Assembly: GCA_002011745.1 (NCBI GenBank)
Contig: MTOU01000043.1
Span: 1 to 52,775 of the forward strand
DNA from: Nitrospirae bacterium JdFR-85
GTDB taxonomy: Bacteria > Nitrospirota > Thermodesulfovibrionia > Thermodesulfovibrionales > JdFR-85
Length of the DNA: 52,775 nucleotides
Direction of reading: 5' to 3'
Notes under the pieces: generated by a model
The model's input: the letters and a program-made list of their open reading frames with translations, nothing else
Database searches by the model: none
Told to the model about the DNA's origin: nothing
Shown: piece after piece, positions 21,455 through 51,638 of the stretch
Position numbering within the stretch: the stretch's first letter is position 1
Layout of the letters: every line of letters begins with the position of its first letter
Position numbers and translations under genes: made by a program

Positions 21455-21646
21455 GTATTTAACACTTGAAATAAAATCTTCTTTTTGATATTTTGTAGGA
21501 AGGAGGGGAAAGAATCTTATTTTAATCAAGATTTCAAAAGGAAAGAGGATTAAAGCGCTATTTTAAGCACAGGGAATGAGAGGAGGTGATATTTTTGGCC
21601 TAAATATTGATTAAACTTTTTAAAATGCCATAAGGAGGGAAAGAGA

Positions 21647-21982
21647 ATGGAAGAGAATATTTTGAAAGAAATACTCTCGACGCTCGAATCAATAAAAATC
21701 CAATTAGAAGTAGGCTCTATCAGTGGAATATCTTTAAGAGGGCCTGTAGCTGATCCACCTCCGGGTATAATCTCACCACGCGGCGTTATAGCTGATCCAC
21801 TTCTTCCAGTGCGTGGACCTGTTGCAGATCCTGCTCCATGGTATCTTTTAGATAAAGCAAAATTGGCTAAGCTTAAAGTTCATCAAATAGAAACAGCAAT
21901 TATGGAGCTGGAAAGACAAATTGAATTTCTTAAATTAGAACGTGACTTGTTGAAAGAGGAATATAAACTCAAAAAAAGATAA
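21647..21982 (+). CDS. small repeat peptide, candidate RiPP-type precursor (RGPVADP repeats)
   Basis: A 111-residue protein that I cannot assign to a family. Residues 1-25 are a predicted amphipathic helix. Residues 31-65 contain three imperfect repeats: RGPVADPPP (31-39), RGVIADPLLP (45-54) and RGPVADPAPW (56-65). Residues 68-111 form a Lys/Glu/Leu-rich coiled coil. A strong Shine-Dalgarno AAGGAGGG precedes the start. The next gene encodes a B12-binding radical SAM protein, and a perfect 16-bp hairpin lies between them, which resembles RiPP operons where precursor is made in excess of maturase. The repeats would be the modified core, though flanking by two helical segments is atypical. The region is more AT-rich than its neighbours. 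Alternative: a coiled-coil structural partner of the enzyme. Confidence 0.6.
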   Translation: MEENILKEILSTLESIKIQLEVGSISGISLRGPVADPPPGIISPRGVIADPLLPVRGPVADPAPWYLLDKAKLAKLKVHQIETAIMELERQIEFLKLERDLLKEEYKLKKR

Positions 21983-21994
21983 TTTAAATTTGTA

Positions 21995-22028
21995 AGGAGT
22001 TTAGAGGCTTTGAAGCCTCTAAACTCCT
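21995..22028 (+). repeat. perfect 16-bp inverted repeat between the repeat peptide and the radical SAM gene
   Basis: AGGAGTTTAGAGGCTT (21995-22010) and its exact complement (22013-22028) are separated by TG. There is no T-run after it, so in RNA it would be a stable processing, stability or attenuation hairpin rather than a simple terminator. It ends 14 bases before the radical SAM start and could also sequester that gene's ribosome binding region. Confidence 0.8.
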
Positions 22029-22042
22029 ATATGTGATATAGG

Positions 22043-23605
22043 ATGGAAAAGGCTGATATTTTGCTGGTAGGTTATGAAGAATGGGAAAACCTCGGATTAC
22101 GGTCAATTGCTGCTTTTTTATTGAAAAATCACATAAATGCAAAAATCTTCTCTTGTGATAAAGGATCAAAAGAGTCTCTTCTTGCTACTATCAAACAAGA
22201 AAAACCTCTCATTGTCGGCTTCTCTTTAATCTTTCAACGAATGCTCTATGAATTTGCTGAGTTGATCGAGTATCTTCGTAAAAAGGGTGTGACCACCCAT
22301 TTCACAATGGGAGGCCATTTTCCAAGTATAGAAGCTCAAAAGACATTAAAAACAATTCCAGGGTTGAATTCAGTAATCCGTGGTGAAGGGGAAGAAACTC
22401 TTTTGGAGCTATTTCATCACATTGCCCAACCTAAGCACTGGAGCAAAATTAAAGGATTGGTTTACCGCATAAACGGAAAAATCAAGACAAATCCACCCAG
22501 ACCTTTAATAAAAAATCTGGATAATCTCCCTTATCCACTTAGAGACAAACATGTTATAACCCATCGAGGACTGGGAATTTGCTCAATTTTAGCCAGTCGA
22601 GGCTGCTATTATAACTGTAGTTTTTGTAGTATCCAGAAATTCTATAGTGATTCACCAGGACCCAAAAGACGTGCTCGATCTCCTGGCAATGTGGTTAAAG
22701 AAATGAAACAACTCTTCCATGAACATAATGTTCGCATTTTTATCTTTGAAGATGATGATTTTGCCATGAAAGCTCCTGCACATCAGAAGTGGCTTGAGGA
22801 GTTTATTCTTCAATTGAAAAAAAGCAGAATCTCTGATCAGATTATCTGGAGAGTCTCCTGTAGAGCAGACGAAATTAATCCTGAGATACTCAAAAAAATG
22901 ATAGATGTAGGACTGATGAGTGTATACATTGGTATTGAGTCGGGGAATAATGAAGGATTAAAAGTTTATAATAAACGCTATACTATAGATACTGTTTACA
23001 GAGCTCTTGACATCCTTCATAATTTAAATCTTCCATACGAATTTGGATTCATGCTTCTGAACCCTTACAGCACCTTTACCACAATAAAAAAAGACATCGA
23101 ATTCCTAAAAAAGATAGGCGAAAATGGACAGGCTGTATGTCATTTTACAAAAATGGTGCCTTATGCAGGAACACCTATTGCCGAAAAACTCAAAAAAGAA
23201 AGAAGACTTAAAGGCACTTTAGCCTTTCCTGATTATACTTATATAGACTCCAGAATAGAATTACTACAAGTATTTCTTACAGAAGCCTTTCATTTCAGAA
23301 ATTTTGATAATAATGGACTGGTTGAAAAATTAAGATATGCTAAATTTGATTCTATTGTATTAAATAAATTTTTCTCTCATAAATATGATACAAAAGCTTA
23401 TGCTAAAGCTATTCAAGATTTAATTCGTAAAAGCAATGAGGTCTGTTTAGAAAATATGAGCTTAGGAGTAATTTTTATGGAACAAAGGAGTGAAAAAGAT
23501 ATCTTAGACAATTGGCATTATGTGTCCTATTTAATAGAAAAAGAAAAATACATGGATTTTTATATTAATTCAAATCTCGATTGGTTAATGAAATGCTTTC
23601 TCTAA
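22043..23605 (+). CDS. B12-binding-domain radical SAM protein, candidate peptide-modifying enzyme
   Basis: A 520-residue class B radical SAM protein. Residues 1-150 form a cobalamin-binding-like Rossmann domain (LLVGYEEWENLGLR, then HFTMGGHFPS and RGEGEETLLELF); the classic DxHxxG cobalamin histidine motif is not evident, which is common in this class. The [4Fe-4S] motif is C188xxxC192xxC195 in RGCYYNCSFCS, followed by a TIM-barrel with FEDDDFAM and YIGIESGN. Residues 400-520 are an extra C-terminal domain of unknown type. Such enzymes methylate or epimerise unactivated carbons. The adjacent repeat peptide is a plausible substrate. Its AT-rich codon use suggests acquisition with the peptide gene. 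Confidence 0.8.
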   Translation: MEKADILLVGYEEWENLGLRSIAAFLLKNHINAKIFSCDKGSKESLLATIKQEKPLIVGFSLIFQRMLYEFAELIEYLRKKGVTTHFTMGGHFPSIEAQKTLKTIPGLNSVIRGEGEETLLELFHHIAQPKHWSKIKGLVYRINGKIKTNPPRPLIKNLDNLPYPLRDKHVITHRGLGICSILASRGCYYNCSFCSIQKFYSDSPGPKRRARSPGNVVKEMKQLFHEHNVRIFIFEDDDFAMKAPAHQKWLEEFILQLKKSRISDQIIWRVSCRADEINPEILKKMIDVGLMSVYIGIESGNNEGLKVYNKRYTIDTVYRALDILHNLNLPYEFGFMLLNPYSTFTTIKKDIEFLKKIGENGQAVCHFTKMVPYAGTPIAEKLKKERRLKGTLAFPDYTYIDSRIELLQVFLTEAFHFRNFDNNGLVEKLRYAKFDSIVLNKFFSHKYDTKAYAKAIQDLIRKSNEVCLENMSLGVIFMEQRSEKDILDNWHYVSYLIEKEKYMDFYINSNLDWLMKCFL

Positions 23606-34822: not shown

Positions 34823-35563
34823 CTAAAAGGCTTCTAAAAGCTCAAAACATCCGAATCCCTGTGGATTCTTCCCACCAAGACCTGCCTCATAGGCGAGTTT
34901 CAGCAACTCTGGATTGCCACTCAGTCTGTAGTGCCCCATCCATCCTTTAATAATAAACCCTTTGTAAACAACTATCTTCTCATCATGTCTTCTTACTCTG
35001 AGAGGCTCGATCCGGAAGTCATCAGAACACGGAGCCCTTCCATAGGCTGCGTGGTATTTCTTGAGAATATTTTTCTTTAAAAGGAAACTGAACTCCTCCT
35101 CAAAAGGACTATAGTAGTATGTCTTCTTACTACCGTCGGCCTTAGAAAGTGTGCTGTAGATGGTCACTGGAGATAGCATTTTTATGGTTATGCTTCTGTC
35201 TATTAAAGGAGCAAAATGGACATTCACTGCTTCAAGATATGCATTCTCTTCGCCAAAGTGGACTTCTCCCATCCTTACAAGGTTTTCTGCCAGTGAACAA
35301 AGTATATCTTCTTTTGGAGATGAGACTACCAGTTTAAAAGGAGAAAACACTTCTATATACCCATCTCTGATTCTTGTCTTGCCCAGTATTCTTGAGAATG
35401 TGAACAACTTAAATGACCTTTTCTCAAATCTGTAGCCCCTTTCATGGACAAACTCCGCAAGCTCCTTTTCCAGATTATCATAGATTATTCCTTGAATAAT
35501 CTGGTTATAGTTGATGGGAATTCTTAATACCCCCTCTTTAAAAAATCTGAAAGTAAGCCTCAT
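34823..35563 (-). CDS. cas6: CRISPR RNA endonuclease Cas6
   Basis: A 246-residue RAMP-fold ribonuclease that processes CRISPR transcripts. The N-terminal IPINYNQIIQGIIY helix and the C-terminal glycine-rich loop GLGGKNPQGFG (228-238) are typical of the Cas6 family associated with type I-A/I-B/III-B systems. It is encoded on the opposite strand to the Cmr and type I-A operons but would serve both. A TATAAT box lies at 35584-35589 (minus strand), about 20 bases before the start, with no convincing -35. Confidence 0.9.
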   Translation of the reverse strand: MRLTFRFFKEGVLRIPINYNQIIQGIIYDNLEKELAEFVHERGYRFEKRSFKLFTFSRILGKTRIRDGYIEVFSPFKLVVSSPKEDILCSLAENLVRMGEVHFGEENAYLEAVNVHFAPLIDRSITIKMLSPVTIYSTLSKADGSKKTYYYSPFEEEFSFLLKKNILKKYHAAYGRAPCSDDFRIEPLRVRRHDEKIVVYKGFIIKGWMGHYRLSGNPELLKLAYEAGLGGKNPQGFGCFELLEAF

Positions 35564-36181
35564 TATTACTCCCTCTCTTTCATATTATACCAAAGTTTAT
35601 TTTCTCTTTTACTTCAATTTTATCTCTTGCCCCGGGTCTACGATATCTCTCTTTTATCTGTACTTTCCAGTATTTTTTATATTCTTTAAATTTCTGCCAA
35701 CACCTATCCAGTTCAGCAATCTTTCTTCCTAATCAGAGCCCTATCAACCAATCCCGTATCTCCTTCTCAAAATATCTCTTTATATCTCTTTTCTACTTGC
35801 GAAGGGAACAGGAAGGGCTCTTTATCAACAAGCATCCTTCTTGAACAGAGCACTCTGCCAGCAGGACTCAAAGGTGCTTTGTTAAGAATTATTTGTAATC
35901 TCAGTGTAGATGCTCATGTAATTAAGTTTCTATGGTTCTCTAACATACAGAGCAAGGTCAATGTCCGAAAGGGGTGATACCTTCTCTTTTTCACTCCACC
36001 AAAGAGATTTAGGCAAAGATAATTTGAGGATGTGTACCAAAACTTTGAAAACCTTTCTTCAGCTCTCTCTGGCAGTCTCTTGAATCTAACATGTTATACC
36101 ATATCAGCCTCTAAGATACTTACCTAATCGTTGACAGGAGAAACTATTTTATGCTATACAAACAGAGGGGGCAAGCAATAA
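35564..36181. other. decayed intergenic stretch between the two cas6 copies
   Basis: I see no intact gene, array or RNA. On the minus strand a 50-codon open stretch without a start (35580-35732) runs up to the cas6 promoter, reading KFKEYKKYWKVQIKERYRR and similar lysine-rich residues. On the plus strand an open stretch of about 95 codons (35690-35977) without ATG includes LPAGLKGALLR, which resembles the PxxxLKGxxR motif of RAMP proteins. Both look like remnants of lost cas genes, but the assignments are weak. Confidence 0.35.
36131..36160 (+). promoter_or_regulatory. predicted promoter of the type III-B (Cmr) operon
   Basis: TTGACA (36131-36136) and TATACA (36155-36160) are separated by 18 bases, 22 bases upstream of the truncated cas6. 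It would drive the plus-strand cas10-to-cmr6 operon. Confidence 0.55.
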
Positions 36182-36499
36182 ATGAAGTTCAGGATCAAAA
36201 AAAGGAGGGAAGAAGGTTTTAACATTCCTGTATCTTTCAATGAAATAATCCAATCTTTTTGTTTCAACAAACGAGTCTCTAAATTCTTTACATTGTCAAA
36301 GTTGCTGATAATTTTCAGGCTACAAAGAGCGTCTTTTCTATCTGGCTATCTAAATTTCTTCTTAAGGGGCTTTACCAAAGGCTGGATGGACAGATACAGA
36401 TTAACCGGTGCACCCGAACTCCTCCGCTTAGCCTACGACGCCGTCCTCGGCTCCAAAAACTCACAGGGGTTTGGGTGTTTTGAGGTGGTGAGGAGGTGA
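36182..36499 (+). pseudogene. internally deleted second cas6
   Basis: This 105-codon frame has a Cas6 N-terminus (NIPVSFNEIIQ, like IPINYNQIIQ of the intact copy) and the Cas6 C-terminus (KGWMDRYRLTGAPELLRLAYDA and the glycine loop SKNSQGFG). The roughly 140 residues between them are lost in at least two deletions. It cannot fold as a full RAMP pair. The remaining parts are well diverged from the intact cas6, so this was an old paralog, presumably the original cas6 of the Cmr operon, not a recent copy. Confidence 0.75.
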
Positions 36500-36511
36500 G
36501 GGGATTTTAAT

Positions 36512-39235
36512 ATGAACTGGAAACTAAAGTTAAAGGCCCTTCTTCATGACCCGCCTCATAAACAGTGGGTCATGTTTTCTGAAGAAGGGCACCAGATAAA
36601 ACCTGTTAAGGCTATCCACCAGAGAGACAAACACCAGTGGCACCAGATTGTGGCAGAGCATTTTCTGAATTATATCCTTGCCAACGAGTGCGTAGCAGAC
36701 GAACAAATAACACGGGCAGACACCCTAGCTTCCGCCTTGAGCAGAACAATAGTCTCGCCACAGATGGAAAAAGATTTGAAAGACAAATTTGAAAGAGACT
36801 CTGTAGTAAGACTTGAAGAGGCTAAATTTATTGACATTTTTTCTCTTAAAGAAACCATACTGGATTTACCTGTTCACGAAGATGTAGAAGAAATCTTTCA
36901 AAAACTTTCAAAGGTTACTTTTAAAAATCCTGAAGACAGGGCAAAGTTTTTCTTTTTCCTTCTATGGCGTTTTTATCCTGAACTGTTTCCATGGATTAAG
37001 AGCCATCCTGCAGACAGCAGAGCCCCCAATCATTCCATCTATGATCATTTAGTTCAGACATCCGCAATTGTCTCTGCCCTGCCGGAGCCAGCATTCTTGC
37101 TTTATACAATAGGACCTGTTCAGTCTTTCATCTCAAAAGCAAAAAAGACTCAGGATCTGTGGGCAGGTTCCTATATGCTTTCCTGGCTGATATGGGAGAG
37201 CATGAAACCAGTGATTGAACAGCTCGGACCGGACACAATTGTTTTTCCAAATCTTTTTGGTCAGCCATTGATGGACAAGTGGTTAAAAAAGTTAGAGTTT
37301 GGGGGGCAGACTTTTGAGGAGATATTAAATGCCCTGTCTCTACAACCCTTATTCAACGATGCAGAAGACAATCTCACCATAGCTAATCTGCCAAATAGAT
37401 TTCTGGCAATTGTTAACTACCAGGGTGGTGATAAAAAGATAGCAAAGGAATGTGAACAAAGGTGCAAGAGTAGTCTCGCTGAACTGGCTAAAAAGACTGC
37501 AGAAAAATTATGCGACAAGACGAATACTCACGAGCTTATGAATAGCATCAGAAACCAGATTTTTATACACTTGGAAAATTACTTTAGGGTTTACTGGGCC
37601 ATACTGCCATGGTCTAATATGGGAGAAGTTAATGATCTATCCCCGATCTTTAATGACTACAAAAAACTCGTTGGAGAAACGGAGCTTTACGAGATCATAA
37701 GGCTGATAACAGAATTCTCCTACTATAGACCAACTAATGTAGGTAGTGCTTATTCATTGCTTCTGGAATTAATAGAGAAACTACTGGGGGCAAGAAAGAG
37801 CAGCAAGGATTTTAACCCCATCTATGAGGAGGGCGATAAGTGCACCCTCTGTGGAGAGTTTAACCAGTTGTGGCTACAGGATTCAGGTCCTGAGTGGATT
37901 AACCCACAAAAAAGAAAGCAAAACAGTAATCTCTGGAATAGTGTCTTTCCATTTGTTAAAGAAGGGGAAAGGCTTTGTGGTGTCTGTTTAACAAAAAGAT
38001 TATTCCCTGAAATTATAAAAGACGAATTAGCTCTCACAGCAAAAGTCAAATTCCCCTCTACGGCTGAGATGGCGAGTATTGGTGAAAAAAGAAAAATGTC
38101 CAGTGAAGTAAAGGAAAGATTTAAAAAGACATTTGAGAAATTTGAAACAACACTAAAGTCCAAAAACTCGGGCAAAAGCCTCCCTGAAACGGAATCCGTT
38201 CCTGCAATAAAGGATTTTGATATTGACGGTCAGTTTTTGATGAAAAACTCATACAGAGAGGACTACTTCAAGAAGGAGTACAGCCTGGATGTCAAAGAAG
38301 AAGACTTTAAAGAGATACTCCAGTTCTTGCAGGAAAACAAAATAAATCCCTTAGCCTATTATGCCATCCTCCAGATGGACGGAGACAACATGGGAAGATG
38401 GCTTAAGGGTGAATTCAATCCAGAAATCAAAAGATTAATTCACCCAAAGGCAACCAATGCGTTGCTTGCTTATGCGACGGAAGAAGAAAAAGAAAGACTG
38501 TACAATATACTTTGTTCTTCACACCCGAACTCCCCATCCCTTCATCAGGCTTTCAGCAGAAGACTTTCTGAGTTTGCACTTGAACATGTAAGAAGGCTCG
38601 TTGAAGAAAAGTATTACGGAAGGCTGGTATATGCAGGTGGAGACGACATACTGGCATTGCTTCCCATTGAAGGAGCTCTTGGATGTGCCTATGACCTTCA
38701 GAGGAGTTTTCAGGAGGTTATAAGTCCAAAGGCAACCATGAGTGCAGGTATTCTGATAGTGCATTATAAATATCCACTTTACCTGGCTCTGAAAGAAGTA
38801 GCAGATACAGAGAAAATGGCAAAGAATTATTTTGAAAAAGATGCATTCTGTCTAAGGATATTAACCCATTCTGGTCATATCAGGCAGACAGGTGGGAAGT
38901 GGAGTTTAATTCCATTTATAGAAGAACTCATTTGCAAATTCAAAAATAGAAAAATTTCATCTCGTTTTCCTTATCAATTCTTAGAGACAATTGAAAGGCT
39001 TTTATTGCCTGAACGCAGAGAGGACAGAAGAAGAATTAAGCCTTCAGATGAGATATTTGAAGTGATAAAAACTGAACTCCAGAGAATTTATGATAGAAAG
39101 ATTAAAGAAGAAAGTGAAAAGGAATTTTTAGAGAAAATACTTAAATGCTACCTAAACTATGAGTTTTCTTATGATGACTTTGCAAACATCTTTATATCTG
39201 CAAAGTTTATGGCAGACGAGATGAGAGCACTATGA
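36512..39235 (+). CDS. cmr2: Cas10/Cmr2, type III-B large subunit with HD and cyclase motifs
   Basis: A 907-residue Cas10. The N-terminal HD motif is H12-D13 in LLHDPPHK, indicating possible single-strand DNase activity. Two palm domains follow; residues C444xxC447 and C489xxC492 form the Cas10 zinc module; DGDN at 623-626 and GGDD at 709-712 form the cyclase centre, so synthesis of cyclic oligoadenylate is predicted. It is the first gene after the truncated cas6 (12 bases) and overlaps csx1 by four bases (ATGA). Confidence 0.95.
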   Translation: MNWKLKLKALLHDPPHKQWVMFSEEGHQIKPVKAIHQRDKHQWHQIVAEHFLNYILANECVADEQITRADTLASALSRTIVSPQMEKDLKDKFERDSVVRLEEAKFIDIFSLKETILDLPVHEDVEEIFQKLSKVTFKNPEDRAKFFFFLLWRFYPELFPWIKSHPADSRAPNHSIYDHLVQTSAIVSALPEPAFLLYTIGPVQSFISKAKKTQDLWAGSYMLSWLIWESMKPVIEQLGPDTIVFPNLFGQPLMDKWLKKLEFGGQTFEEILNALSLQPLFNDAEDNLTIANLPNRFLAIVNYQGGDKKIAKECEQRCKSSLAELAKKTAEKLCDKTNTHELMNSIRNQIFIHLENYFRVYWAILPWSNMGEVNDLSPIFNDYKKLVGETELYEIIRLITEFSYYRPTNVGSAYSLLLELIEKLLGARKSSKDFNPIYEEGDKCTLCGEFNQLWLQDSGPEWINPQKRKQNSNLWNSVFPFVKEGERLCGVCLTKRLFPEIIKDELALTAKVKFPSTAEMASIGEKRKMSSEVKERFKKTFEKFETTLKSKNSGKSLPETESVPAIKDFDIDGQFLMKNSYREDYFKKEYSLDVKEEDFKEILQFLQENKINPLAYYAILQMDGDNMGRWLKGEFNPEIKRLIHPKATNALLAYATEEEKERLYNILCSSHPNSPSLHQAFSRRLSEFALEHVRRLVEEKYYGRLVYAGGDDILALLPIEGALGCAYDLQRSFQEVISPKATMSAGILIVHYKYPLYLALKEVADTEKMAKNYFEKDAFCLRILTHSGHIRQTGGKWSLIPFIEELICKFKNRKISSRFPYQFLETIERLLLPERREDRRRIKPSDEIFEVIKTELQRIYDRKIKEESEKEFLEKILKCYLNYEFSYDDFANIFISAKFMADEMRAL

Positions 39236-40587
39236 AGGTAATATATCAGGTTGATAAGGTAAATGCTCAGGAGATCAAATTCTGCATTCAGGATAAGTAC
39301 TACACCTATCCCCTTTCATCTTTTGCTTTAAAAGAGCATCTGGAAAAAAATGGAATAAAGGTAATATTGATTCATCCTGCAAGTATGATTTTTGACAAGA
39401 ATGTTTACGAAATAGCAAATCTACCAAATGAGACAAAAAAATATATCAAAACAATAGTGAGTGAAGATGACAAAAGAGAAAGTTACTTTAGAAATCCTCA
39501 TGGAATGTTTGAAATACACCCTTTTAAAGAGTTATATGACGATATATTTCCTATTCATTCAATAGGTGAATTTGAGGGCATTAAATTTGAAGGTGATTAT
39601 GATGATATTGTGCTTGAAATATTTATACACCTTTGTGGGAACTACATAGAATCTCCCTTCAAAGAACTTTACATAGATATCTCAACTGGTCATAACATCT
39701 ATATTTCTGCCCTGCTTGAAGCAGCAAGGCATTTTGCAGTGTTTTCCTCACTTATAAACTGGTATGATAAAGGCAAAATACCGGCAATATTTGTGTCTTT
39801 CTCTGATCCAATAATTGGTTCTCCTTTACCTGAGTATAAAATTTACTGGTATAAGTTAAAATTTAAGTCCTTCTTCTCATCCCCCATCAAGTACAATGTT
39901 GATTTCAGAAAAGGAGAACCCCTTTTGGCAAAAAGACTTGCGGAAAAAAATAAAGAGTTAAAAGCAAAGATTCAGGAATATTTTGAAAACTTTGCAATAA
40001 TCTTTTCTTCTATTAAGAACAACATCCCCCTGGGTATCTACCATTTTGGATATCACAACCATGAGGATGCTCTGTCTTTTCTCCAAGAAGTGCTAAGCCT
40101 CTTAAGGGGCAAACTTTATCAAAATTTTCGCATCTCTCCTAAACTGGAAAAAGAGGGATGGTTAAAACTATTTTTGTCTCTTGGGTTTTATTTGGGAATT
40201 ATTGAAGTTTTAGAGCACTACGGGATTAAAAAATATGAAATTCAGGAAGGCATCTCTCTGGATAAAATAAAAAATGTATTTGGAGCAAGCAACAAATCTA
40301 TTTATAAGATTTTTGACCTGAATCTAAATATTGAATGGCTTGGCAAAGAATTGTGGAACTATATGGAGGGTAAAGAAAAGTTGATTAACAAAGTACATGA
40401 AAAGTGGTGTCTTTTAAAAAACTATCTCAGTGGTATTACTGATGAGTTTAACAAGAGAAACTTTCTTGCCCATTGTGGCTTTGAAAGAAATATTACGGAA
40501 ACAAGAAGAAACGATGGGAAAATCTACATGAGATGGTGGACCAAAGAAGAGACCAAGATAAAAAGATACCTGCTTGAGGAGGTTTAA
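39232..40587 (+). CDS. csx1: Csx1-family CARF-HEPN ribonuclease
   Basis: A 451-residue ancillary effector. The N-terminal CARF domain carries the ligand-loop DISTGHN (149-155). The C-terminal HEPN domain has the catalytic R-x4-H motif R409-H414 in RNFLAHCGF. In Csx1/Csm6 proteins cyclic oligoadenylate made by Cas10 binds the CARF dimer and switches on HEPN RNase activity against cellular and invader RNA. Placement directly after cas10 fits this. Confidence 0.88.
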   Translation: MKVIYQVDKVNAQEIKFCIQDKYYTYPLSSFALKEHLEKNGIKVILIHPASMIFDKNVYEIANLPNETKKYIKTIVSEDDKRESYFRNPHGMFEIHPFKELYDDIFPIHSIGEFEGIKFEGDYDDIVLEIFIHLCGNYIESPFKELYIDISTGHNIYISALLEAARHFAVFSSLINWYDKGKIPAIFVSFSDPIIGSPLPEYKIYWYKLKFKSFFSSPIKYNVDFRKGEPLLAKRLAEKNKELKAKIQEYFENFAIIFSSIKNNIPLGIYHFGYHNHEDALSFLQEVLSLLRGKLYQNFRISPKLEKEGWLKLFLSLGFYLGIIEVLEHYGIKKYEIQEGISLDKIKNVFGASNKSIYKIFDLNLNIEWLGKELWNYMEGKEKLINKVHEKWCLLKNYLSGITDEFNKRNFLAHCGFERNITETRRNDGKIYMRWWTKEETKIKRYLLEEV

Positions 40588-40588
40588 G

Positions 40589-41629
40589 TTGATCTTGAGA
40601 TTTACCATAAAGCCATACGATGTGCTATTCTTCGGCTCTGGAAAACCATTCAACCTTGGCGATGTGGCAGTATCAATTTTCCCTCCATTTCCACATACCC
40701 TTGCAGGAGCCATTTCCTCCCGAATTACCATAAATAATCCCCTAAAAAGAATATTCGGTCCTTTTCTATTTAACCAGAAGGAAAGCAAACTCTACTTTCC
40801 AAAGCCAGCGGATATATATGGTGAAAGAAAAAGTAAATCTTCAAATAAGATATTTACTCTTACACCTCTGAAGGAAGATCTACACATCTTCAATCATGAA
40901 AATACAAACATGCCTGAGGGAATAAATGAACTTACAGTATTTTACGGAAAGGAAGATGTAGAGTCTTTTGTAGGTTATATTTCTCAGAAAGGACTCTCGG
41001 ACTGGTTAAAAGGCAAAAGTATTGATCCTTCAGAAATAAAAAAGAACGAAGATATTTTTGGATATGAAAATAGGCTGGGGATTTTTCAGAATACTGATAC
41101 TCACACAGTCACTCAAGAAAATGGACTTTATAGAATAGAGATGGTAAGACTTAAGGATGAATGGAAACTTCTATGTTGGGTTGAGTTTTCAGATGTGGTA
41201 GATAAAGATAAAGTAATGACAGCTTTCAAATCAAACCCTAAGGTTCTTAAACTTGGTGGTGAAATGAAGACAGCACAGTATGACCTTGAGGAAGACGAAA
41301 GCATATTAAATCTATTTGAAAAGATTGAACCTAAAAAAGGTGAGATTGTAAAGTTACTCTACTTAACTCCTGGAGTATATAATGATTTCATTCCTGACAT
41401 AAAAGGGCTTAGAGTTAAGAGTATTATAACCACCGGACATATAAATATGGGACTTCACTCTCCTCAAAAATTAGGCAAATACAGAGTAATGAAAAAATCG
41501 CTACCTCCTGGGACAGTTATATATTGTGAAGTAGAAGATGCAAGCCAGGCCATGCAAGTATGGCTCAATCCATCTCACGGAGACAACGATTTTATAGGCT
41601 CTAATTTAATAGTTTACGGGAGGCCATGA
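40589..41629 (+). CDS. cmr3: Cmr3, type III-B RAMP subunit
   Basis: A 346-residue RAMP protein of the Cas5 group that caps the 5' tag of the crRNA in the Cmr complex. Visible family features are FFGSGKPFNLGD, the SIFPPFPHTLAGAISSRI segment and STGHINMG-like glycine motifs near the C-terminus (TTGHINMGLHSP). The TTG at 40589 is preferred because AGGAGG (40577-40582) is 6 bases upstream; an upstream TTG at 40574 precedes that site. It starts one base after the csx1 stop. Confidence 0.88.
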   Translation: MILRFTIKPYDVLFFGSGKPFNLGDVAVSIFPPFPHTLAGAISSRITINNPLKRIFGPFLFNQKESKLYFPKPADIYGERKSKSSNKIFTLTPLKEDLHIFNHENTNMPEGINELTVFYGKEDVESFVGYISQKGLSDWLKGKSIDPSEIKKNEDIFGYENRLGIFQNTDTHTVTQENGLYRIEMVRLKDEWKLLCWVEFSDVVDKDKVMTAFKSNPKVLKLGGEMKTAQYDLEEDESILNLFEKIEPKKGEIVKLLYLTPGVYNDFIPDIKGLRVKSIITTGHINMGLHSPQKLGKYRVMKKSLPPGTVIYCEVEDASQAMQVWLNPSHGDNDFIGSNLIVYGRP

Positions 41630-41630
41630 G

Positions 41631-42461
41631 ATGAAGGAATTCCACATAATAAGCACGGGCAACTCACTTATAACAAATGCTCAAAAGGCTGGGACTTGTG
41701 ATCCAAGTAGAAAGATAGCAGAAGAACAATACTGGAAGGCGTTACTTGACAATCCAGGCGAATTGGAAAAATTATATGGTTTTCTGAAATCTGACCCTAA
41801 AAAAATCTCGGCTGAATTAAACACATTTTTAAGAGTTGTTAACACCAAAAATTCAGAAGTAGAGGTTTATCTTTTTGGAACTAAGACATCTTCCAATGAA
41901 TTAGCAAGGCGAATTATTGAAAGATTTTTAAAGGAAGAGGGTTTTAAAATCTACACTCCTTATGAAGTGAGCGGTTATTTCTGGGAGAAGACAAGATTTG
42001 ATGAAAAATATGCAAGAGATGAGTTTCAAAAAGGGATATCTGAACTCCTTGACAGGCTTATCTATCTTGCAAAGAAAAAGAAGGAAGAAGGGTTCAAGGT
42101 GTATTTCAATCCAACCGGAGGGCTGAAAGCCCATGTTATGGCCTGTGCCCTTGCAGGATTTTTGACCAATACAGAAGTCTATTACATGAATGAGGAATTT
42201 GCTAATGTGGTCTTTTTACCCCCTCTTCTGTATTTGCCAAAGGGCAAAGAACTTGAAGTGCTTGAAATTATTTTTGATAAAAGCCAGTTGTCTGGGGCGA
42301 GTTTTGAGGAATTAAAGGAAAGTTATGCTGAAGAAATTAGCAGACTTGAAATTTACGGATTGATTGATGTTGAGCGAGATGAGATAAAAAGAGAGGTCAA
42401 AGTAAGGATAACAAATAAGGGGATTTTGTTATTCCGTGAGTTAAAGGGGGATAATAAATGA
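41631..42461 (+). CDS. CARF-wHTH protein of the APE2256 family (regulator or ring nuclease)
   Basis: A 276-residue CRISPR-linked protein. The CARF fold occupies about residues 1-200, with the NPTGG ligand motif at 160-164 (FNPTGGLKAHVMA) and YYMNEEF after it. Residues of about 210-270 form a winged helix (EEISRLEIYGLIDVERDE, then VRITNKGILLF). No HEPN or other RNase motif is present. Members of this CARF group, such as Sulfolobus Crn1, cleave cyclic tetra-adenylate and end the response; the wHTH could instead make it a ligand-controlled transcription factor. It overlaps cmr1 by four bases. Confidence 0.75.
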   Translation: MKEFHIISTGNSLITNAQKAGTCDPSRKIAEEQYWKALLDNPGELEKLYGFLKSDPKKISAELNTFLRVVNTKNSEVEVYLFGTKTSSNELARRIIERFLKEEGFKIYTPYEVSGYFWEKTRFDEKYARDEFQKGISELLDRLIYLAKKKKEEGFKVYFNPTGGLKAHVMACALAGFLTNTEVYYMNEEFANVVFLPPLLYLPKGKELEVLEIIFDKSQLSGASFEELKESYAEEISRLEIYGLIDVERDEIKREVKVRITNKGILLFRELKGDNK

Positions 42462-43360
42462 GTATAAATTTGGTCTATAGACAAACTTATACATTCTCAA
42501 TTATAACTCCAATTATAATGTCAGGAGCAGATAGATATGGTTTAGAGTTTAGGACTCAATCTGTTAATGGAATATTACGATGGTGGTATAGGTTCTGGAA
42601 AGCCATTGAGGTTAAAAATTTGGAAGAGTTAAAACAAAAAGAAGGTAAGATGTGGGGAACGCAAGAAAGAGCAAAAGAGTTTAGACTAAAAATTACCCGG
42701 ATACCAGACAATGTAATAGAGGCTTTTTTAAGAATGAACGATAGAAGTAATCCTAATATTAAAAGAAGAGCATTTTCCACAGGAGAATTCCAGATTATTT
42801 TTGAATCAATTACAGGCATCAAAAATGAGAAAGATTTCATCAATACACTCTATTTTTTATCACTTTTTGGTGGCATTGGTGCGAGATGGCGAAGGGGGTT
42901 CGGCAGTGTTATGTGGAACGAAATAAATCTATCCACAAATACTCTTGAAGAAATAGAAGAGGTTATCAGATCTAAACTGAACTCAAATTTACAAATTCAA
43001 CCTTCAGGTGATGGCAGCTTTGATAAATTTATGAATTTAAGAACTACAACTATTTATTTGATTAAACCGAAAAATAATTTCTGGAGTGATTGGCAAAGTG
43101 CAATGGATGATTTAAGAGAGAACTTTTACCGGAAATTAAAGGAAGTCTTAGAAGTAAAGTCTATTGGCTCTATAAAGCCAAGAAAGCCAAGTCCATTAGT
43201 AATTCAGATCAAGAAGATTAAAAATAATAAATTTTTGGGAATACTTTTGGTATATCAAAATTGGGAATATTATCAAGACATTTTGGACTTTATAGATAGA
43301 ACTGATTTTGAATTCGAAATAAGAAAATTGAATTTTATTAAGGAGGCAAGGCATGTTTGA
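42458..43360 (+). CDS. cmr1: Cmr1, type III-B RAMP subunit
   Basis: A 300-residue RAMP protein of the Cas7 group. The N-terminal TPIIMSGADRYGLEFRTQS and SVNGILRWWYR (35-45) motifs are typical of Cmr1, and a glycine-rich RWRRGFGS loop lies near residues 144-151. It is shorter than the two-RRM Cmr1 of Pyrococcus, but the family is clear. It sits at the head end of the crRNA-bound complex near the 3' end. The gene is distinctly AT-rich and overlaps cmr4 by eight bases. Confidence 0.88.
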   Translation: MSINLVYRQTYTFSIITPIIMSGADRYGLEFRTQSVNGILRWWYRFWKAIEVKNLEELKQKEGKMWGTQERAKEFRLKITRIPDNVIEAFLRMNDRSNPNIKRRAFSTGEFQIIFESITGIKNEKDFINTLYFLSLFGGIGARWRRGFGSVMWNEINLSTNTLEEIEEVIRSKLNSNLQIQPSGDGSFDKFMNLRTTTIYLIKPKNNFWSDWQSAMDDLRENFYRKLKEVLEVKSIGSIKPRKPSPLVIQIKKIKNNKFLGILLVYQNWEYYQDILDFIDRTDFEFEIRKLNFIKEARHV

Positions 43361-44393
43361 AGAAAAGGCCATATTGAGTTTTTATGCAGAAACTCCAATA
43401 CACATGGGAGCAGGACAGGCTGTGTCTTATGTGGATCTGCCAGTTCAAAGAGAAAGGATTACAGGGTTTCCGACTTTATGGTCATCAGGGATTAAAGGGG
43501 TAATTAGAGAACTTGCAGAAAGGCTCTGGAATAACAATGGTAAAGTAGAGGTAATCTTTGGCCCCAGAGAGGAGTCTCAGGAATACGCCTCTTGCATTTC
43601 AATTACAGACGCAAAGATTTTGCTTTACCCCGTTCGCTCTGTAAGAGGCGTTTTTGCCTGGATAACCTGCCCCTTTGTGTTAAGGAGGTGTAAAGATGAT
43701 CTGAAAAGTGTAGGGATTAAGTTTGTTAAAAACAATGAAGAAATTCAAGTCCCAGAACCTTCTGGAGATGATAAAGTAGTGGTTACATCTTCTCAGAGTG
43801 TGCTTGGAATAGATAGCGATACTGTGGGTTTAGAAGAGTTTATCCTTAATGTGGATGCAAACAAAGATGCAAAGGATTTGGCTGAATTTATCATACAATT
43901 TTTACCTCAGAATGAGCTGAGCAACTCACTTCCTCAAAGAATTGCTATTGTCTCTGACGATGTATTTAAAGATTTAGTAAATTACGCAGTGGAGGTAAGA
44001 ACAAGGATAAAGATTGACCAGACAACTGGAACGGTTCAAGAAGGGGCGCTATTTACGGAAGAGTTAATACCTTCTGAAAGTATTTTTTATTCACTTTTAT
44101 TTATAGCAAATCCATACTTAGGCATTCAAAATGATATTTATAAAAAACTTATAGAAGCCAAACAAAACTCTAAATCCTTTGAGCAAGGAATTAATAGTTT
44201 ATCTGAAGATGAAAAGAAAGTAATAGGAAAAATAAATCTGGTCGAGAAAGCCTATAAAAGAAACTACTTTACTGCTGAAGAAATTAAAGATTGTTTAAAG
44301 TTTATTGATGGTAATCTCCTTCAACTCGGTGGTGATGAAACTACTGGAAAAGGATTTATGAGAGTGAGATTTTATGAAAAATCTCAAACCTAA
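43353..44393 (+). CDS. cmr4: Cmr4, type III-B backbone RAMP with target-RNA cleavage role
   Basis: A 346-residue Cas7-group RAMP forming the Cmr filament. The N-terminal ETPIHMGAGQ motif, SGIKGVIRE (45-53, with LW/S context) and the C-terminal LQLGGDETTGKGFMRV loop are conserved. In this family an acidic residue on the thumb region cleaves target RNA at 6-nucleotide intervals; I cannot place it with certainty here. It is followed by cmr5 after 14 bases. Confidence 0.92.
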   Translation: MFEEKAILSFYAETPIHMGAGQAVSYVDLPVQRERITGFPTLWSSGIKGVIRELAERLWNNNGKVEVIFGPREESQEYASCISITDAKILLYPVRSVRGVFAWITCPFVLRRCKDDLKSVGIKFVKNNEEIQVPEPSGDDKVVVTSSQSVLGIDSDTVGLEEFILNVDANKDAKDLAEFIIQFLPQNELSNSLPQRIAIVSDDVFKDLVNYAVEVRTRIKIDQTTGTVQEGALFTEELIPSESIFYSLLFIANPYLGIQNDIYKKLIEAKQNSKSFEQGINSLSEDEKKVIGKINLVEKAYKRNYFTAEEIKDCLKFIDGNLLQLGGDETTGKGFMRVRFYEKSQT

Positions 44394-44407
44394 TCTGGAG
44401 GTCCACA

Positions 44408-45058
44408 ATGATAAGAACAATCAAACAAGAAAGAGCCAAGTTCTGTTTGGCATGTGTAAAGAGAATAAAACTTGCAACAATTGGAAAATGGCAGGAAAAT
44501 CTAAATGGAGAGTTTTATGAAGTAAAAATTGATTCTTTAGAGAAGTTAAAAGATTTTTATAATAAATCTCAAAAAATTGGTGGTATCTGGGTTGGGTTTA
44601 TGGATTTTTTTATTTCTCAAATTCTAAAAAATAAAAAAAGTCTCTTAGAAAAACTTCTAAAAGACGCTTTAAATGATCAGGAAAAGAACGAATTAAGCAC
44701 TTTGGTACTAAATAAACTTTTGTTTGCCGATTTTATCAAAGAGTATGGTAGTCATGCCAAACGGTTACCTCAAATGATAGTTTCAAACGGATTGATTTCC
44801 ACACTTGCTTTTTACAAAGCAAAGAGTAAAGAGAGAAGGCAGATTTATAACGACTTAACTGAATTAATGGAGTTATTATTTAGACCATATAAAGAATGGA
44901 AAATAAAAAATCCAGAGAAAGGTTTAATTGAATTTTTAATTGAAGGTGATGCAAATATTTTACGCCTTGCTACTATAGAAACACTCGCGCTCGCAGAATG
45001 GCTTAAAAGAATTGTAGAGATGGAGATAAAAACAGGAGGTACTTTAGATGAAGCGTAA
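44408..45058 (+). CDS. cmr5: Cmr5, type III-B small subunit, enlarged
   Basis: A 216-residue helical small subunit; usual Cmr5 proteins have about 120-150 residues. The typical N-terminus (QERAKFCLACVKRIK) and the later family segment (YGSHAKRLPQMIVSNGLISTLAFY, then LRLATIETLALAEWLKRI) are present, but about 80 extra residues separate them (about 25-110). The gene starts after GGAGG-type spacing and overlaps cmr6 by 11 bases. Confidence 0.85.
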   Translation: MIRTIKQERAKFCLACVKRIKLATIGKWQENLNGEFYEVKIDSLEKLKDFYNKSQKIGGIWVGFMDFFISQILKNKKSLLEKLLKDALNDQEKNELSTLVLNKLLFADFIKEYGSHAKRLPQMIVSNGLISTLAFYKAKSKERRQIYNDLTELMELLFRPYKEWKIKNPEKGLIEFLIEGDANILRLATIETLALAEWLKRIVEMEIKTGGTLDEA

Positions 45059-46136
45059 AAAGACTCAGAGAAGAGCAAGACAATCTTATTCTTATAGAAT
45101 TGATTATACATTACGATTTGGTGGAAATTCATTCTTTTTTACAAGCGACAATGTTAGTGATGAGAAAGAATCCAAAGTTAATGAAAAATTTTATAAAACA
45201 ATAACAGACGCAACCTTTAAGATGCCTTTAGATAATCTTGCTCTTTTCATGACAAAATATATTCCAATAATAGAAGCTAAATTAATAGACTTAAAGAAAG
45301 AGAAAGAAAAAGTTTTATTTTCAATTGATGAGAAATCTATCAGTGCAGAATCAATAAAACCATTCCTGAGCGGATTTATTCAAAAATCTTTTAAAATAAA
45401 TAATAATATATTACAACTGGTAAATCAAAGAGTTAAAGATACAATAAATGTTTTAACAAAAAATGGATATATATCTTTATACCAAAATATTGGATTAAAT
45501 CTCATTACCCAATCCCGTCTTGTAGTCGGTCTTGGTGCGGTTCATCCTCTTGAAATATCTCTCGCCCTACATCATATATTTGGGGTCCCTTACATTCCTG
45601 GTTCTGCCTTAAAAGGTGTAAGCAGGATGGTGGCATTCTGGAAGATAGCAAAAGAAAAGGGACTCCTTGAAGATACTTCTGGCAGGGAGGATAAGATCAA
45701 ATCTTTACAAAATAGATTTTATGGGAGTTTGGTTAAAGATGACGAGATAGTCTTAAAATACCAGATTCTTTTTGGTGCTCAAAACTTTAAAGGACTTCTT
45801 TTGTTTCTTGATGCCTATCCAGAAGTGCCCCAGGATGGAAGCCTCTTTGACCTTGATGTTATGAATATCCATTATCCAAAGTACTATTCAGGCAACGAGC
45901 CTCCAGGGGACTGGCAGAACCCAAATCCTATTTTCTTTTTGACAATAAAAGAAGGGATTAATTTCAATTTTCATGTTTTGTTTGACCAGTACAGATACAC
46001 TCAACTATCCCACGATTACAGAGAACTGATTAATCAGAGTCAACTCGTTTCTGAAGTTAAAGAGATTCTGGAGTATGCACTAAAAGAGTTCGGCATAGGT
46101 GCAAAAACAAGGTTGGGATACGGATTGTTTGAATAA
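45048..46136 (+). CDS. cmr6: Cmr6, type III-B RAMP subunit
   Basis: A 362-residue Cas7-group RAMP. The diagnostic stretch YIPGSALKGVSRM begins at about residue 182, and the C-terminus ends in the glycine-rich FGIGAKTRLGYGLF loop. The N-terminal 130 residues are a lysine-rich helical region. It completes the Cmr set cas10-cmr1-3-4-5-6 and is the last gene of the operon; a tandem palindrome follows 20 bases later. Confidence 0.92.
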   Translation: MKRKKTQRRARQSYSYRIDYTLRFGGNSFFFTSDNVSDEKESKVNEKFYKTITDATFKMPLDNLALFMTKYIPIIEAKLIDLKKEKEKVLFSIDEKSISAESIKPFLSGFIQKSFKINNNILQLVNQRVKDTINVLTKNGYISLYQNIGLNLITQSRLVVGLGAVHPLEISLALHHIFGVPYIPGSALKGVSRMVAFWKIAKEKGLLEDTSGREDKIKSLQNRFYGSLVKDDEIVLKYQILFGAQNFKGLLLFLDAYPEVPQDGSLFDLDVMNIHYPKYYSGNEPPGDWQNPNPIFFLTIKEGINFNFHVLFDQYRYTQLSHDYRELINQSQLVSEVKEILEYALKEFGIGAKTRLGYGLFE

Positions 46137-46156
46137 TGAATTTGAATAACGAAATT

Positions 46157-46179
46157 AGAAATATTTCCGAAATATTTCT
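46157..46179. promoter_or_regulatory. tandem palindrome, operator or weak terminator between the Cmr and type I-A operons
   Basis: The palindrome GAAATATTTC occurs twice (46158-46167 and 46169-46178) with an 11-base period, that is, about one helical turn. The whole unit is also an inverted repeat with 11-base arms and one central base (46157-46179), followed by TTTTG. It could be an AT-rich terminator after cmr6 or a site for a dimeric regulator in front of cas3. Confidence 0.6.
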
Positions 46180-46317
46180 TTTGTAGAAGTTCGTATAGAC
46201 AAGAGATTAAACTAAACTAATCAAATGCTCACGGCACTAAGGAGAATAGAGGGCGTTGGAGTTTTGATAACAACAGGACTGAGGTGAATGTAAGGGAGGC
46301 ATGACAAAGGATACATC

Positions 46318-47997
46318 ATGACAGACTGCAAGTCTTTTTATAGGAAATTCTTGAACATTGATACTCCCTATGAAATGCAGGAGAACCTTTGGCAAATACT
46401 GCAAGAAGGAAGGTTTCCTGTACTCCTTAAAGCACCTACTGGTAGCGGAAAAACAGAGGCTATTGTGGCTCCTTTTCTCAGTCAGTTTACAGAAAACAGG
46501 TTTATAATTGCTCCAAGGTTGATTTATGTGCTTCCAATGAGAGTGCTCGTGAATTCAGTTGCAGAAAGAATAAGAAAGTATTGCAATAGAATTTCTCCAA
46601 ATATCACAGTCAGGGCCCAACACGGTGATGCCCCTGGGAGCCCATTTTTTATCAGCGATATAGTGGTAACCACTTTGGACCAGTTTGTCTATGGTTTTGC
46701 CCGCTCAAGCAGAGAGGCAGGACACCATATTGACCTTCCAGCAGGTGCAATAGCATCGTCTTTAGTTGTATTTGATGAGGCACACATGTACAGGGATGAG
46801 TTTACCTTTTCAGTTATGCGCGCGACAATGGAGATATTGAATGAAAGCAGAGTCCCCTTTGTAGTGATGACAGCCACAGCTCCAGAGAGGCTTGAAAAGA
46901 GTCTATTTGAAAACATAAAAGAATATAAAAAGATATACGACAACTCCGTGGTCTCAGGTAAAGTTACATGGAGCATAGCAGAGACACCTCTTTATATAGA
47001 CGATGAACTTCTTGAAAAGATAAAATCAAAAAGGACTCTTATCGTAGCAAATCAGGTTAAAAGGGCACAGAGACTCTACGAAGAGATAAAGACGATGCTG
47101 GACTTTGAAGAGTCTCGTATAGTGCTGCTTCATTCAAGGTTTACAAGAGAAGACCGAGACAGGCACGAACACAGAGCAATCTCTATGCTTCCGCATAAAG
47201 AAAACGAAAAGCTCGTTGTGCCCAAAGATGCAGGCATTGTGGTTTCTACTCAGGTTCTTGAGGCAGGGGTGGACCTTTCAGCAGAACTGCTACTTACAGA
47301 GATGGCACCGGCAGATGCCCTTGTCCAGAGAGTGGGAAGGTGTGCAAGATACCCTGAGCAGGAGGCTGAGGTGATAATATTTCCTCCAGAAGAAGACAAA
47401 GGATACAGACCCTACAGAAGAGAGCATGTTGAAATGACAATGAAGTGGTTGATGGAGCATCCTGAGTTTGACTTCAGAGACTTTGACGAAGTATGCACAT
47501 TTGTAAATGAGACACTTGATTATAGGGCAAACGATTATGAGGCCACTGATACCCTGATCGACCTGTTTGAATGTGTCCTGTATGCTGACCAGAAGCCACA
47601 GAACATCCAGGTCAGAGATGGCAAGCCTGTTACGATTTTGGTAGTTGAACCAGCACTGGACGAAAAGAAGAAACGCCAGAAGAAAGAGGAGCAGATTCTT
47701 AAAGGGGTTTACGAAATCTACAAGAACGGCAAGAAGATAAGCGACTACTCTTTTGAAGTAGACATTAAGACTGCATGGGGATGGTTTAAAAATAGGCTTA
47801 TACAATACGAACTGCAATGGAGATATGATGAGAAAGAAAATAAGTATACTCCTAACATCATAAACCTTTTTGAGAAAGGCTCATCCAGCCCTTCTGAGGA
47901 AGATACTCGTATAGGACCTTTTAGAACTTACATCCTTGAAAAAGTCTATTATGACTCATTAACAGGGGTGAAGAATGACGAATCAATTTTTATATAG
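46318..47997 (+). CDS. cas3: Cas3' helicase, type I-A-like (stand-alone)
   Basis: A 559-residue superfamily 2 helicase without HD domain. Walker A is APTGSGKTE (39-47), Walker B DEAH (153-156), motif III TAT (185-187), and motif VI LVQRVGRCAR. Split helicase and nuclease genes are a mark of type I-A. It unwinds target DNA recruited by Cascade. AAAGGA lies upstream of the ATG. It overlaps the HD nuclease gene by 23 bases. Confidence 0.9.
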   Translation: MTDCKSFYRKFLNIDTPYEMQENLWQILQEGRFPVLLKAPTGSGKTEAIVAPFLSQFTENRFIIAPRLIYVLPMRVLVNSVAERIRKYCNRISPNITVRAQHGDAPGSPFFISDIVVTTLDQFVYGFARSSREAGHHIDLPAGAIASSLVVFDEAHMYRDEFTFSVMRATMEILNESRVPFVVMTATAPERLEKSLFENIKEYKKIYDNSVVSGKVTWSIAETPLYIDDELLEKIKSKRTLIVANQVKRAQRLYEEIKTMLDFEESRIVLLHSRFTREDRDRHEHRAISMLPHKENEKLVVPKDAGIVVSTQVLEAGVDLSAELLLTEMAPADALVQRVGRCARYPEQEAEVIIFPPEEDKGYRPYRREHVEMTMKWLMEHPEFDFRDFDEVCTFVNETLDYRANDYEATDTLIDLFECVLYADQKPQNIQVRDGKPVTILVVEPALDEKKKRQKKEEQILKGVYEIYKNGKKISDYSFEVDIKTAWGWFKNRLIQYELQWRYDEKENKYTPNIINLFEKGSSSPSEEDTRIGPFRTYILEKVYYDSLTGVKNDESIFI

Positions 47998-48700
47998 TGC
48001 TCCCGAAGAGCCATACACCCTTCACATTGAGCGGTGTATGGAAAAGTTTGAGGTTATATATCCAGTATTTGCAGAGACCTTAAAGCGAGTGTTTGCAATT
48101 GCAAAAAGTGAAAAGATAAAAGAATACTTGCAACAGATGATCCTCTTTCACGACCTTGGCAAACTGACACAGAAGTGGCAAAACAACTTAGGCAGAGGGA
48201 AACTTCCCTCTCATGCGCCTGTTGGTGCTTGCTATTTGTGGAAGAGTATGCCAGTAGTGTCTGATTTAAAGGAAGCCATTGTTTTTGCAGTATCAATACA
48301 CCATACAGACAGTGGACTGTTGGGAAGCAACATAGAAAAGCCCGATGTGCAAGCCATACTTGACGGTATAGTGGAACATTCAGGAGAAATAATCTGGGAC
48401 AAAAAAGTCAAAGACCTTTCCACAACCTATTTCCCTGCTCCTGCAGAAACATTAAGTGTATACGACCTAAAAGATATGGCAAGAGGTCTAAGGCTCTGGT
48501 CAAAAGGAGAAAGCATCCTTAAGCAGCACAGAAGAAGACTTCAGGCAACCCTTGTCCATCATATACTGAAACTCTGCGACATCTCGGCGGCCATTGAAAG
48601 AAAGGAGTTTAAAGAAAGCGATGATTACTTTAGTGGTTGGAGAATGGTCAAAGACATAAAGGAATATGTTGATAATTTAAACAAGAGGTTAGAGACATGA
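47975..48700 (+). CDS. Cas3'' HD nuclease, type I-A-like (stand-alone)
   Basis: A 241-residue HD-domain nuclease. Likely metal ligands are H17, the HD pair H59-D60 in LFHDLGK, H80 in SHAPVGA, HH 109-110 in SIHHTDSG and a late aspartate in LKLCDISAAIE. It degrades the non-target strand with the separately encoded Cas3' helicase. It overlaps cas8a by four bases (ATGA). Confidence 0.88.
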   Translation: MTNQFLYSAPEEPYTLHIERCMEKFEVIYPVFAETLKRVFAIAKSEKIKEYLQQMILFHDLGKLTQKWQNNLGRGKLPSHAPVGACYLWKSMPVVSDLKEAIVFAVSIHHTDSGLLGSNIEKPDVQAILDGIVEHSGEIIWDKKVKDLSTTYFPAPAETLSVYDLKDMARGLRLWSKGESILKQHRRRLQATLVHHILKLCDISAAIERKEFKESDDYFSGWRMVKDIKEYVDNLNKRLET

Positions 48701-50091: not shown

Positions 50092-50305
50092 AGAAAGGAT
50101 AGAAATAAATCCTGAGATTTTGGTTGGAAAGCCAATTATAAAAGGGACACGAATCTCGGTAGAGTTTATTTTAGAACTCCTTGCTTCAGGCTGGAGTGAA
50201 GAGGAAATACTTAAAAACTATCCTCAACTCCAAAAAGAGGACATTCTTGCTGCTATTGAATATTCACTTGAAATCTTAAAAGAAGAAAGAGTATTTGCAA
50301 TATGA
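50081..50305 (+). CDS. DUF433 antitoxin (VapB-type)
   Basis: A 74-residue DUF433 protein with the family core PEILVGKPIIKGTRISVEFILELLASGWSEEEI and YPQLQKEDI. The start at 50081 follows AAAGGAGG; a longer frame from 50045 lies within cas8. DUF433 proteins are the antitoxins of DUF5615 PIN-like toxins. It overlaps the toxin by four bases. The pair is inserted between cas8 and cas7, and a duplicate fragment of this gene lies at 52401-52482. Confidence 0.88.
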   Translation: MRYKERIEINPEILVGKPIIKGTRISVEFILELLASGWSEEEILKNYPQLQKEDILAAIEYSLEILKEERVFAI

Positions 50306-50652
50306 GATTCTTGGCAAACGAAAATATTCCTTTAAAGGTTATTAACGAATTAAAAGACAACGGTTACGATATTTTGAGAGTTGATGAATTAAAAAGAGGA
50401 ATGTCTGATGTAGAAGTTTTAGAGTTAGCCACGAAAGAAGAAAGAGTTCTTATTACTTTTGATAAAGACTTTGGAGAAATTGCTGTCAAAACTAAAAGAG
50501 CTATAAATGGAATTATTCTTTTGAGAATGAGACCTGAATCTGCTGATTTTATAAAACACCGACTATTGTCTTTACTTAAAGAAACTCAGCAATTTCAAAA
50601 TAAACTCATCATTCTTGCAGAAGATAGATTCAGAGAAAGAACTTTAAAATAG
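50302..50652 (+). CDS. DUF5615 PIN-like toxin
   Basis: A 116-residue PIN-like RNase toxin. The N-terminal FLANENIPLKVINEL corresponds to the FLxDENxP metal motif of the family with N-E in place of D-E, and VLITFDKDFGE supplies the conserved acidic pair. It is likely neutralised by the DUF433 protein it overlaps. Its stop codon lies one base before the cas7 ribosome binding site, so toxin and cas7 are probably on one transcript. Confidence 0.85.
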   Translation: MRFLANENIPLKVINELKDNGYDILRVDELKRGMSDVEVLELATKEERVLITFDKDFGEIAVKTKRAINGIILLRMRPESADFIKHRLLSLLKETQQFQNKLIILAEDRFRERTLK

Positions 50653-50662
50653 GAGGTGAATG

Positions 50663-51625: not shown

Positions 51626-51638
51626 AAATTGGTTTAAA

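Follow-up and report, generated by a model that had tools for sequence, protein, structure and literature searches.

What kind of system is formed by a cobalamin-binding radical SAM enzyme and a small repeat-bearing protein that are encoded side by side? The question is raised by the stretch of DNA analysed here (52,775 nucleotides from Nitrospirae bacterium JdFR-85, contig MTOU01000043.1; hereafter the window), in which a preliminary description had pointed out a 111-residue peptide with three imperfect copies of RGPVADP, an adjoining B12 radical SAM gene and, as a conjecture, a RiPP-type system in which the two would act together. Our best reading of the analyses presented below is that the two genes encode a hitherto undescribed system of peptide/protein modification whose anatomy resembles that of RiPPs and in which the substrate would be marked by a DPxP motif and docked through a C-terminal helix.

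The peptide and enzyme genes

Both open reading frames were recovered exactly as previously described, as were the repeats (RGPVADPPP, RGVIADPLLP and RGPVADPAPW), the strong ribosome binding site of the peptide gene and the CxxxCxxC motif of the enzyme (Table 1). The AT-richness noted earlier was likewise observed, the GC content across the pair being 27-39% vs 40-51% in the flanks. The triple repeat is not a chance occurrence, since three similar 7-mers arose in only 1/2000 shuffles of the peptide. The AlphaFold model (computed from a 2-row alignment) bears out the proposed placement of the repeats between two helical segments: a helix at residues 2-26 and a confidently predicted one at residues 65-110 flank a disordered repeat region (residues 25-61, pLDDT <50), with the last DPxP situated 51 residues from the C-terminus. 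The peptide is not covered by any family of Pfam, NCBIfam or PHROGs.

Table 1. Features of the gene pair (positions refer to the window).
Feature	Position	Strand	Basis or remark
Strong ribosome binding site ATAAGGAGGG	21630..21639	+	7 bases 5' of ATG 21647
Putative precursor/substrate peptide gene	21647..21982	+	ORF, 111 aa; relative L013:4512-4844, 64% identity
N-terminal helix, residues 2-26	21650..21724	+	AlphaFold
Repeat 1 RGPVADP, residues 31-37	21737..21757	+	Codon comparison with Aerophobetes relative
Repeat 2 RGVIADPL, residues 45-52	21779..21802	+	Comparison with Aerophobetes relative
Repeat 3 RGPVADPAPW, residues 56-65 (last DPxP)	21812..21841	+	Codon comparison, spacing
C-terminal helix (residues ~65-110); putative follower module for enzyme docking	21839..21979	+	AlphaFold and module comparison
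Intercistronic hairpin, 15-bp perfect stem, 4-nt loop	21995..22028	+	-25.7 kcal/mol, z -5.8
Cobalamin-binding radical SAM enzyme, 520 aa, proposed peptide modifier	22043..23605	+	ORF and domain matches

The enzyme belongs to the cobalamin-binding radical SAM superfamily, as it harbors both the B12-binding (PF02310, E 1.9e-16) and the radical SAM (PF04055, E 1.5e-22) domains (both above cut-off), and its motif cysteines (C188-x3-C192-x2-C195) are invariant across the clade described below. It passes no NCBIfam cut-off (with no tRNA or cofactor family near its own), and the sub-cut-off hits to radical SAM families do not fix its reaction. No Pfam match to an RRE (PqqD-like) domain was obtained for it, which is not decisive, since many radical SAM RiPP enzymes are devoid of a recognisable one. 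Structure prediction of the enzyme reached a pLDDT of 46.5, and the solved structures closest to it in sequence, namely OxsB, an apramycin biosynthetic oxidoreductase and CysS, are all remote.

Three other assignments were tried and rejected: a MiaB/RimO methylthiotransferase (31.8 bits vs a cut-off of 314.7), a defence system (a superfamily-level PADLOC hit only, 58 bits) and a phage origin (no PHROGs hit). Viral contigs searched with the peptide, the enzyme and the enzyme alignment returned nothing, and plasmids yielded distant enzymes only and no peptide. The best plasmid enzyme lies in a Sinorhizobium cluster together with aldo-keto reductase-like and methyltransferase-like genes (and no precursor); the small-molecule appearance of the neighbours of this distant relative counts against a role in peptide modification.

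Beside the pair, inspection of the ORFs by eye revealed no recognisable protease or exporter. The hairpin between the two genes, which has no U-run, is a possible attenuator or mRNA stabiliser, and its absence from the Aerophobetes relative (see below) makes it a local feature. Upstream, within 21581-21604, a perfect AGGAGGTGAT Shine-Dalgarno (the sole copy in the window) is situated 66 bases 5' of the peptide start; after it comes a start-stop of two codons (TTG GCC TAA). The identical 10-mer was found in the Aerophobetes relative (L013 4386-4412), 126 bases 5' of the peptide and followed by ATG AGA TAA; in both cases, these elements may possibly constitute a minimal leader ORF through which the peptide gene is controlled.

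An Aerophobetes relative and the local history of the pair

The only close relative of the peptide among the searched genome contigs (64% identical by BLAST) was identified in a Candidatus Aerophobetes MAG (locus L013), where the N-terminal half of the enzyme begins 113 bases after the peptide and reaches the contig end (70% identity), while its C-terminal half is found on a different contig of that MAG (62% identity). Since both genes are present in this MAG among different neighbours (the genes upstream of the pair differ from those of the window), we take the pair, on comparative sequence grounds, to be real.

Repeat 1 was found to be fully conserved between the two peptides (with all codon differences being synonymous), and repeat 3 showed 6 synonymous and 0 nonsynonymous differences. 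The combined tally for the two repeats (8 synonymous, 0 nonsynonymous), as opposed to that of the stretch between them (5 synonymous, 11 nonsynonymous), shows at the codon level that purifying selection acted on repeats 1 and 3 and not on the intervening stretch. Repeat 2 is degenerate in the relative (RGAVTESL), and this lack of conservation is a point against regarding the repeats as a substrate.

The selection pattern bears on an alternative that we consider unlikely, namely that the coiled-coil protein is a partner of the enzyme (chaperone, activator or docking subunit), that the enzyme acts on another molecule and that DPxP functions as a helix N-cap. Its appeal lies in the fact that the C-terminal helix is the structural element shared by the small proteins, that DP often begins helices (DPxP could be just such an N-cap) and that enzymes placed outside the clade apparently do their work unaided by a protein of this kind. 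It does not sit well, however, with the constraint on repeats 1 and 3 (and its absence from the residues between them), with the multiplication of DPxP in a disordered, non-helical stretch (in the window peptide and in a second type of partner protein introduced below), or with the strong ribosome binding site of the peptide gene, which suggests an abundant product.

The peptide was found neither in a congener of the window's organism (G001) nor in the other sampled genomes of its family, and no credible relative emerged from 60 near relatives and a 296-genome phylum sample (the weak hits being mostly stop-containing). In G001, the amidohydrolase, aldo-keto reductase and AOR genes are kept without the pair and the other side is rearranged, such that a clean empty site is not shown there. 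The retention of this downstream operon without the pair, together with the low GC content, suggests that the pair was acquired by transfer.

A clade of enzymes paired with DPxP proteins

A search of the phylum with the enzyme produced 10 long matches (324-387 bits), all belonging to a single family other than that of the window (f27, perhaps Nitrospira-like, genomes mostly 4-5 Mb), with the next match dropping to 135 bits. Within 175 genomes of this family we recovered 14 intact clade members and a truncated one (distributed over 13 genomes), which, with the window and L013 (its gene split over two contigs), amounts to 16 intact loci. In all 16, the ORF immediately upstream, in the same orientation, encodes a protein in which DPxP precedes a C-terminal helix-like segment, and all the related precursor genes have purine-rich ribosome binding sites (AAGGAGG-type or similar). 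In the phylogenetic tree (into which the Aerophobetes enzyme was entered only with its N-terminal half), all paired enzymes group together in a single clade (support 99/97). The enzymes of L084, L086 and L088-L091 match the clade profile and have no DPxP partner beside them; those placed in the tree (L084, L086, L088, L089 and L090) fall outside the clade.

The partner proteins were sorted by motif and length. Type A (the window and L013) carries the RGPVADP repeats, while type B (L054, 171 aa from the best ATG) contains VVDPAPW, VVDPGPF, IVDPGPF, VVADPAPYPW and, as the last one, IGDPPP. Type C (L050-L052, L092 and L093; 77-78 aa) is represented by PINWDPVPWWFFERANL, type C' (L094, 68 aa) by VKDPVPPW, and type D (L053, L055-L059 and L096; 331 aa) by DKGDPSPEDIIRLKL, with a single DPSP. 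The hallmark is accordingly not RGPVADP, as first proposed, but rather a DPxP ahead of a C-terminal helix, repeated in types A and B and single in the others. The distance from the last DPxP to the C-terminus is 49-54 residues in types A, B, C and C' (chances of a DPxP at this position in shuffled sequences, 0.0004-0.006 for each type) and 78 in type D. Moreover, the C-terminal modules of A and C match by profile (probability 84%, P 8e-6); those of B and D match weakly, and the case for these two types is consequently made by motif, position and gene order.

Two outcomes had been named beforehand as speaking against a dedicated pair: homologs of the small protein that mostly occur without the enzyme, and a tRNA or cofactor enzyme clade with unconserved pairing. 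The opposite was found on both counts, as the RGPVADP type is paired in 2/2 and the 77-aa type in 6/6 genomes, and as no such family scores near its cut-off while 16/16 loci are paired. In the reverse direction, a type C/C' profile detected its target in 6/172 genomes, each time beside the enzyme and with no orphans. The arrangement that generally characterises RiPPs (a small precursor adjoining a maturation enzyme, as a conserved pair) is thus present here in 16/16 loci and, by reverse search, in 6/6 genomes. These figures render it highly improbable that the enzyme serves small-molecule, lipid or tRNA metabolism with the small ORF adjacent by chance: although BchE, HpnJ, HpnR and MiaB-like enzymes are members of this superfamily (and here score below cut-off), every curated family scores far below its cut-off, adjacency persists in unrelated neighbourhoods, and the 77-aa peptides have no orphans.

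Several side observations were made among these loci. The 331-aa type D protein is highly conserved, lies directly upstream of the enzyme and has no Pfam or PHROGs match. L095 (G533:C117) is a decaying copy: its clade enzyme is truncated and contains an internal TGA, and the genome harbors an intact pair as well. The closest neighbour of the clade in the tree (sister at 81/76, on a long branch), an enzyme of G408 (locus L085, reverse strand), has a 781-aa protein upstream and, downstream, a 236-aa protein with four EPAH repeats (DWVEPAHPAV, DWMEPAHFV, EWQEPAHWF and VKEPAHFFR), in which an acidic residue-Pro-Ala recurs and is followed by an aromatic residue in 3/4. This protein may be a second substrate family, a single case that hints at acidic-Pro motifs as a general substrate of the larger enzyme group.

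Genomic context and comparison with known systems

The surroundings of the pair vary. In G220, the type B locus has a TIGR03975 radical SAM enzyme downstream (715 bits vs a cut-off of 282) and a PatA/PatG protease in its cluster (724 bits vs 421). HlyB/HlyD type I secretion genes lie in the vicinity of type D in G224, and three type C/C' loci have matrixin-type metalloproteases nearby. A PatA-type protease over cut-off was detected in 1/9 genomes tested, and that of the window has none (its best PatA/PatG matches reach 64 and 59 bits vs the cut-off of 421). As the maturation, protease and export genes differ among loci, the common denominator is the enzyme together with the DPxP-helix protein.

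The initial assignment to a RiPP-type system thus stands in part: the anatomy is RiPP-like and one cluster contains RiPP-maturation genes, but the window's genome has no PatA-type protease over cut-off, neither a protease nor an exporter was recognised next to the two genes, and one substrate type has a length of 331 aa. A stronger form of our interpretation, in which the DPxP repeats are the core units of a true RiPP, being modified, excised and exported in the form of small products, is conceivable and in our view rather doubtful. The multi-copy repeats of types A and B, the protease and second RiPP radical SAM enzyme of the type B cluster and the secretion genes near type D would fit such a scheme. 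Set against these are the lack of a PatA-type protease over cut-off in 8/9 genomes (the window's included), the single DPxP of types C and D (which abuts the C-terminal helix) and the length of type D.

Among described systems, the best NCBIfam score of the window enzyme (132.5 bits vs a cut-off of 750) was obtained with ApyD of aminopyruvatide (NF050148), likewise a cobalamin-binding radical SAM enzyme encoded beside its peptide substrate. ApyD beta-methylates Tyr, has an RRE and is partnered by an MNIO, a P450 and a methyltransferase (PMC10635010). Beside the window pair, by contrast, no MNIO, P450 or methyltransferase was recognised, and the precursor is unrelated; as a clue to the reaction, the sequence likeness to ApyD may be taken only as a lead. 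TIGR03975 (rSAM_ocin_1, the RiPP maturation radical SAM C-methyltransferases) shares the superfamily with the window enzyme, which at 74.7 bits (cut-off 281.85) forms a separate family. The cyanobactins (PatA/PatG) offer a parallel in the repeated internal cores of one precursor and in the protease beside the type B relative; they differ in motif, in the protease (absent over cut-off from the window's genome) and in their cyclodehydratase chemistry, the place of which is here taken by a radical SAM enzyme. Furthermore, in methyl-coenzyme M reductase methylation (e.g. TIGR04014), a cobalamin radical SAM enzyme modifies a residue inside an uncut protein, although the score against this family is low (62 bits vs 360) and the substrate is unrelated.

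Proposed function

We consider it probable that the two genes encode a substrate and its enzyme, with recognition of the C-terminal helix and modification in the DPxP segment or repeats just N-terminal of it. The C-terminal helix would dock the small protein on the enzyme and bring the flexible DPxP segment within reach of the radical centre, where residues in or beside DPxP would be modified. The likeliest reaction would be C-methylation at an unactivated carbon, as this is the usual reaction of the class and also the one carried out by ApyD, which scores best among the curated RiPP enzymes. For the window's genome, we lean towards the whole small protein being the final product, or being cleaved by a general protease. 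A point against the substrate interpretation is type D, which, with 331 aa and one DPSP 78 residues from its end, is unlike a classical precursor.

More tentatively, and with somewhat less than even confidence, we suggest that the clade may employ a portable modification tag, in which DPxP before a C-terminal docking helix is modified in otherwise unrelated proteins (68-331 aa), with the motif multiplied into repeats in some lineages and with both motif and chemistry being new.

Other features of the window

CRISPR-associated genes occupy positions 34826-52364 of the window. They comprise Cas6 (34826-35563, reverse strand), a short second fragment resembling Cas6 (36182-36499, 105 aa), Cas10/Cmr2, RAMP proteins, a Cas3-like helicase and a DevR/Csa2 protein. 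Between 34700 and 52775, no CRISPR array was seen. Inside this region, two 81-base copies (50188-50268 and 52401-52481, 93% identical), each part of a small duplicated ORF, lie beside a DUF5615 gene, and the duplicated unit is perhaps a toxin-antitoxin module.

Significance

We found no curated family, PDB chain or open-access paper describing the pair, in line with the earlier remark that no described family with this repeat was recognised. Among the open-access papers searched, none contained GPVADP and none linked Aerophobetes to radical SAM RiPPs. To our knowledge, a peptide substrate has been identified for only a small number of cobalamin radical SAM enzymes, and the majority of clades are still without an assigned one. 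The recurrence of pairing and motif in unrelated bacteria makes a new modified peptide or protein directly testable: as the clade brings along a putative substrate that is compact, recognisable by motif, spacing and docking helix, and available as several natural variants, both the substrate rules and the chemistry can be addressed by two-gene co-expression. Moreover, if the substrates indeed include both a 111-aa peptide with three repeats and a protein of 331 aa, the boundary between RiPP and protein maturation would be blurred.
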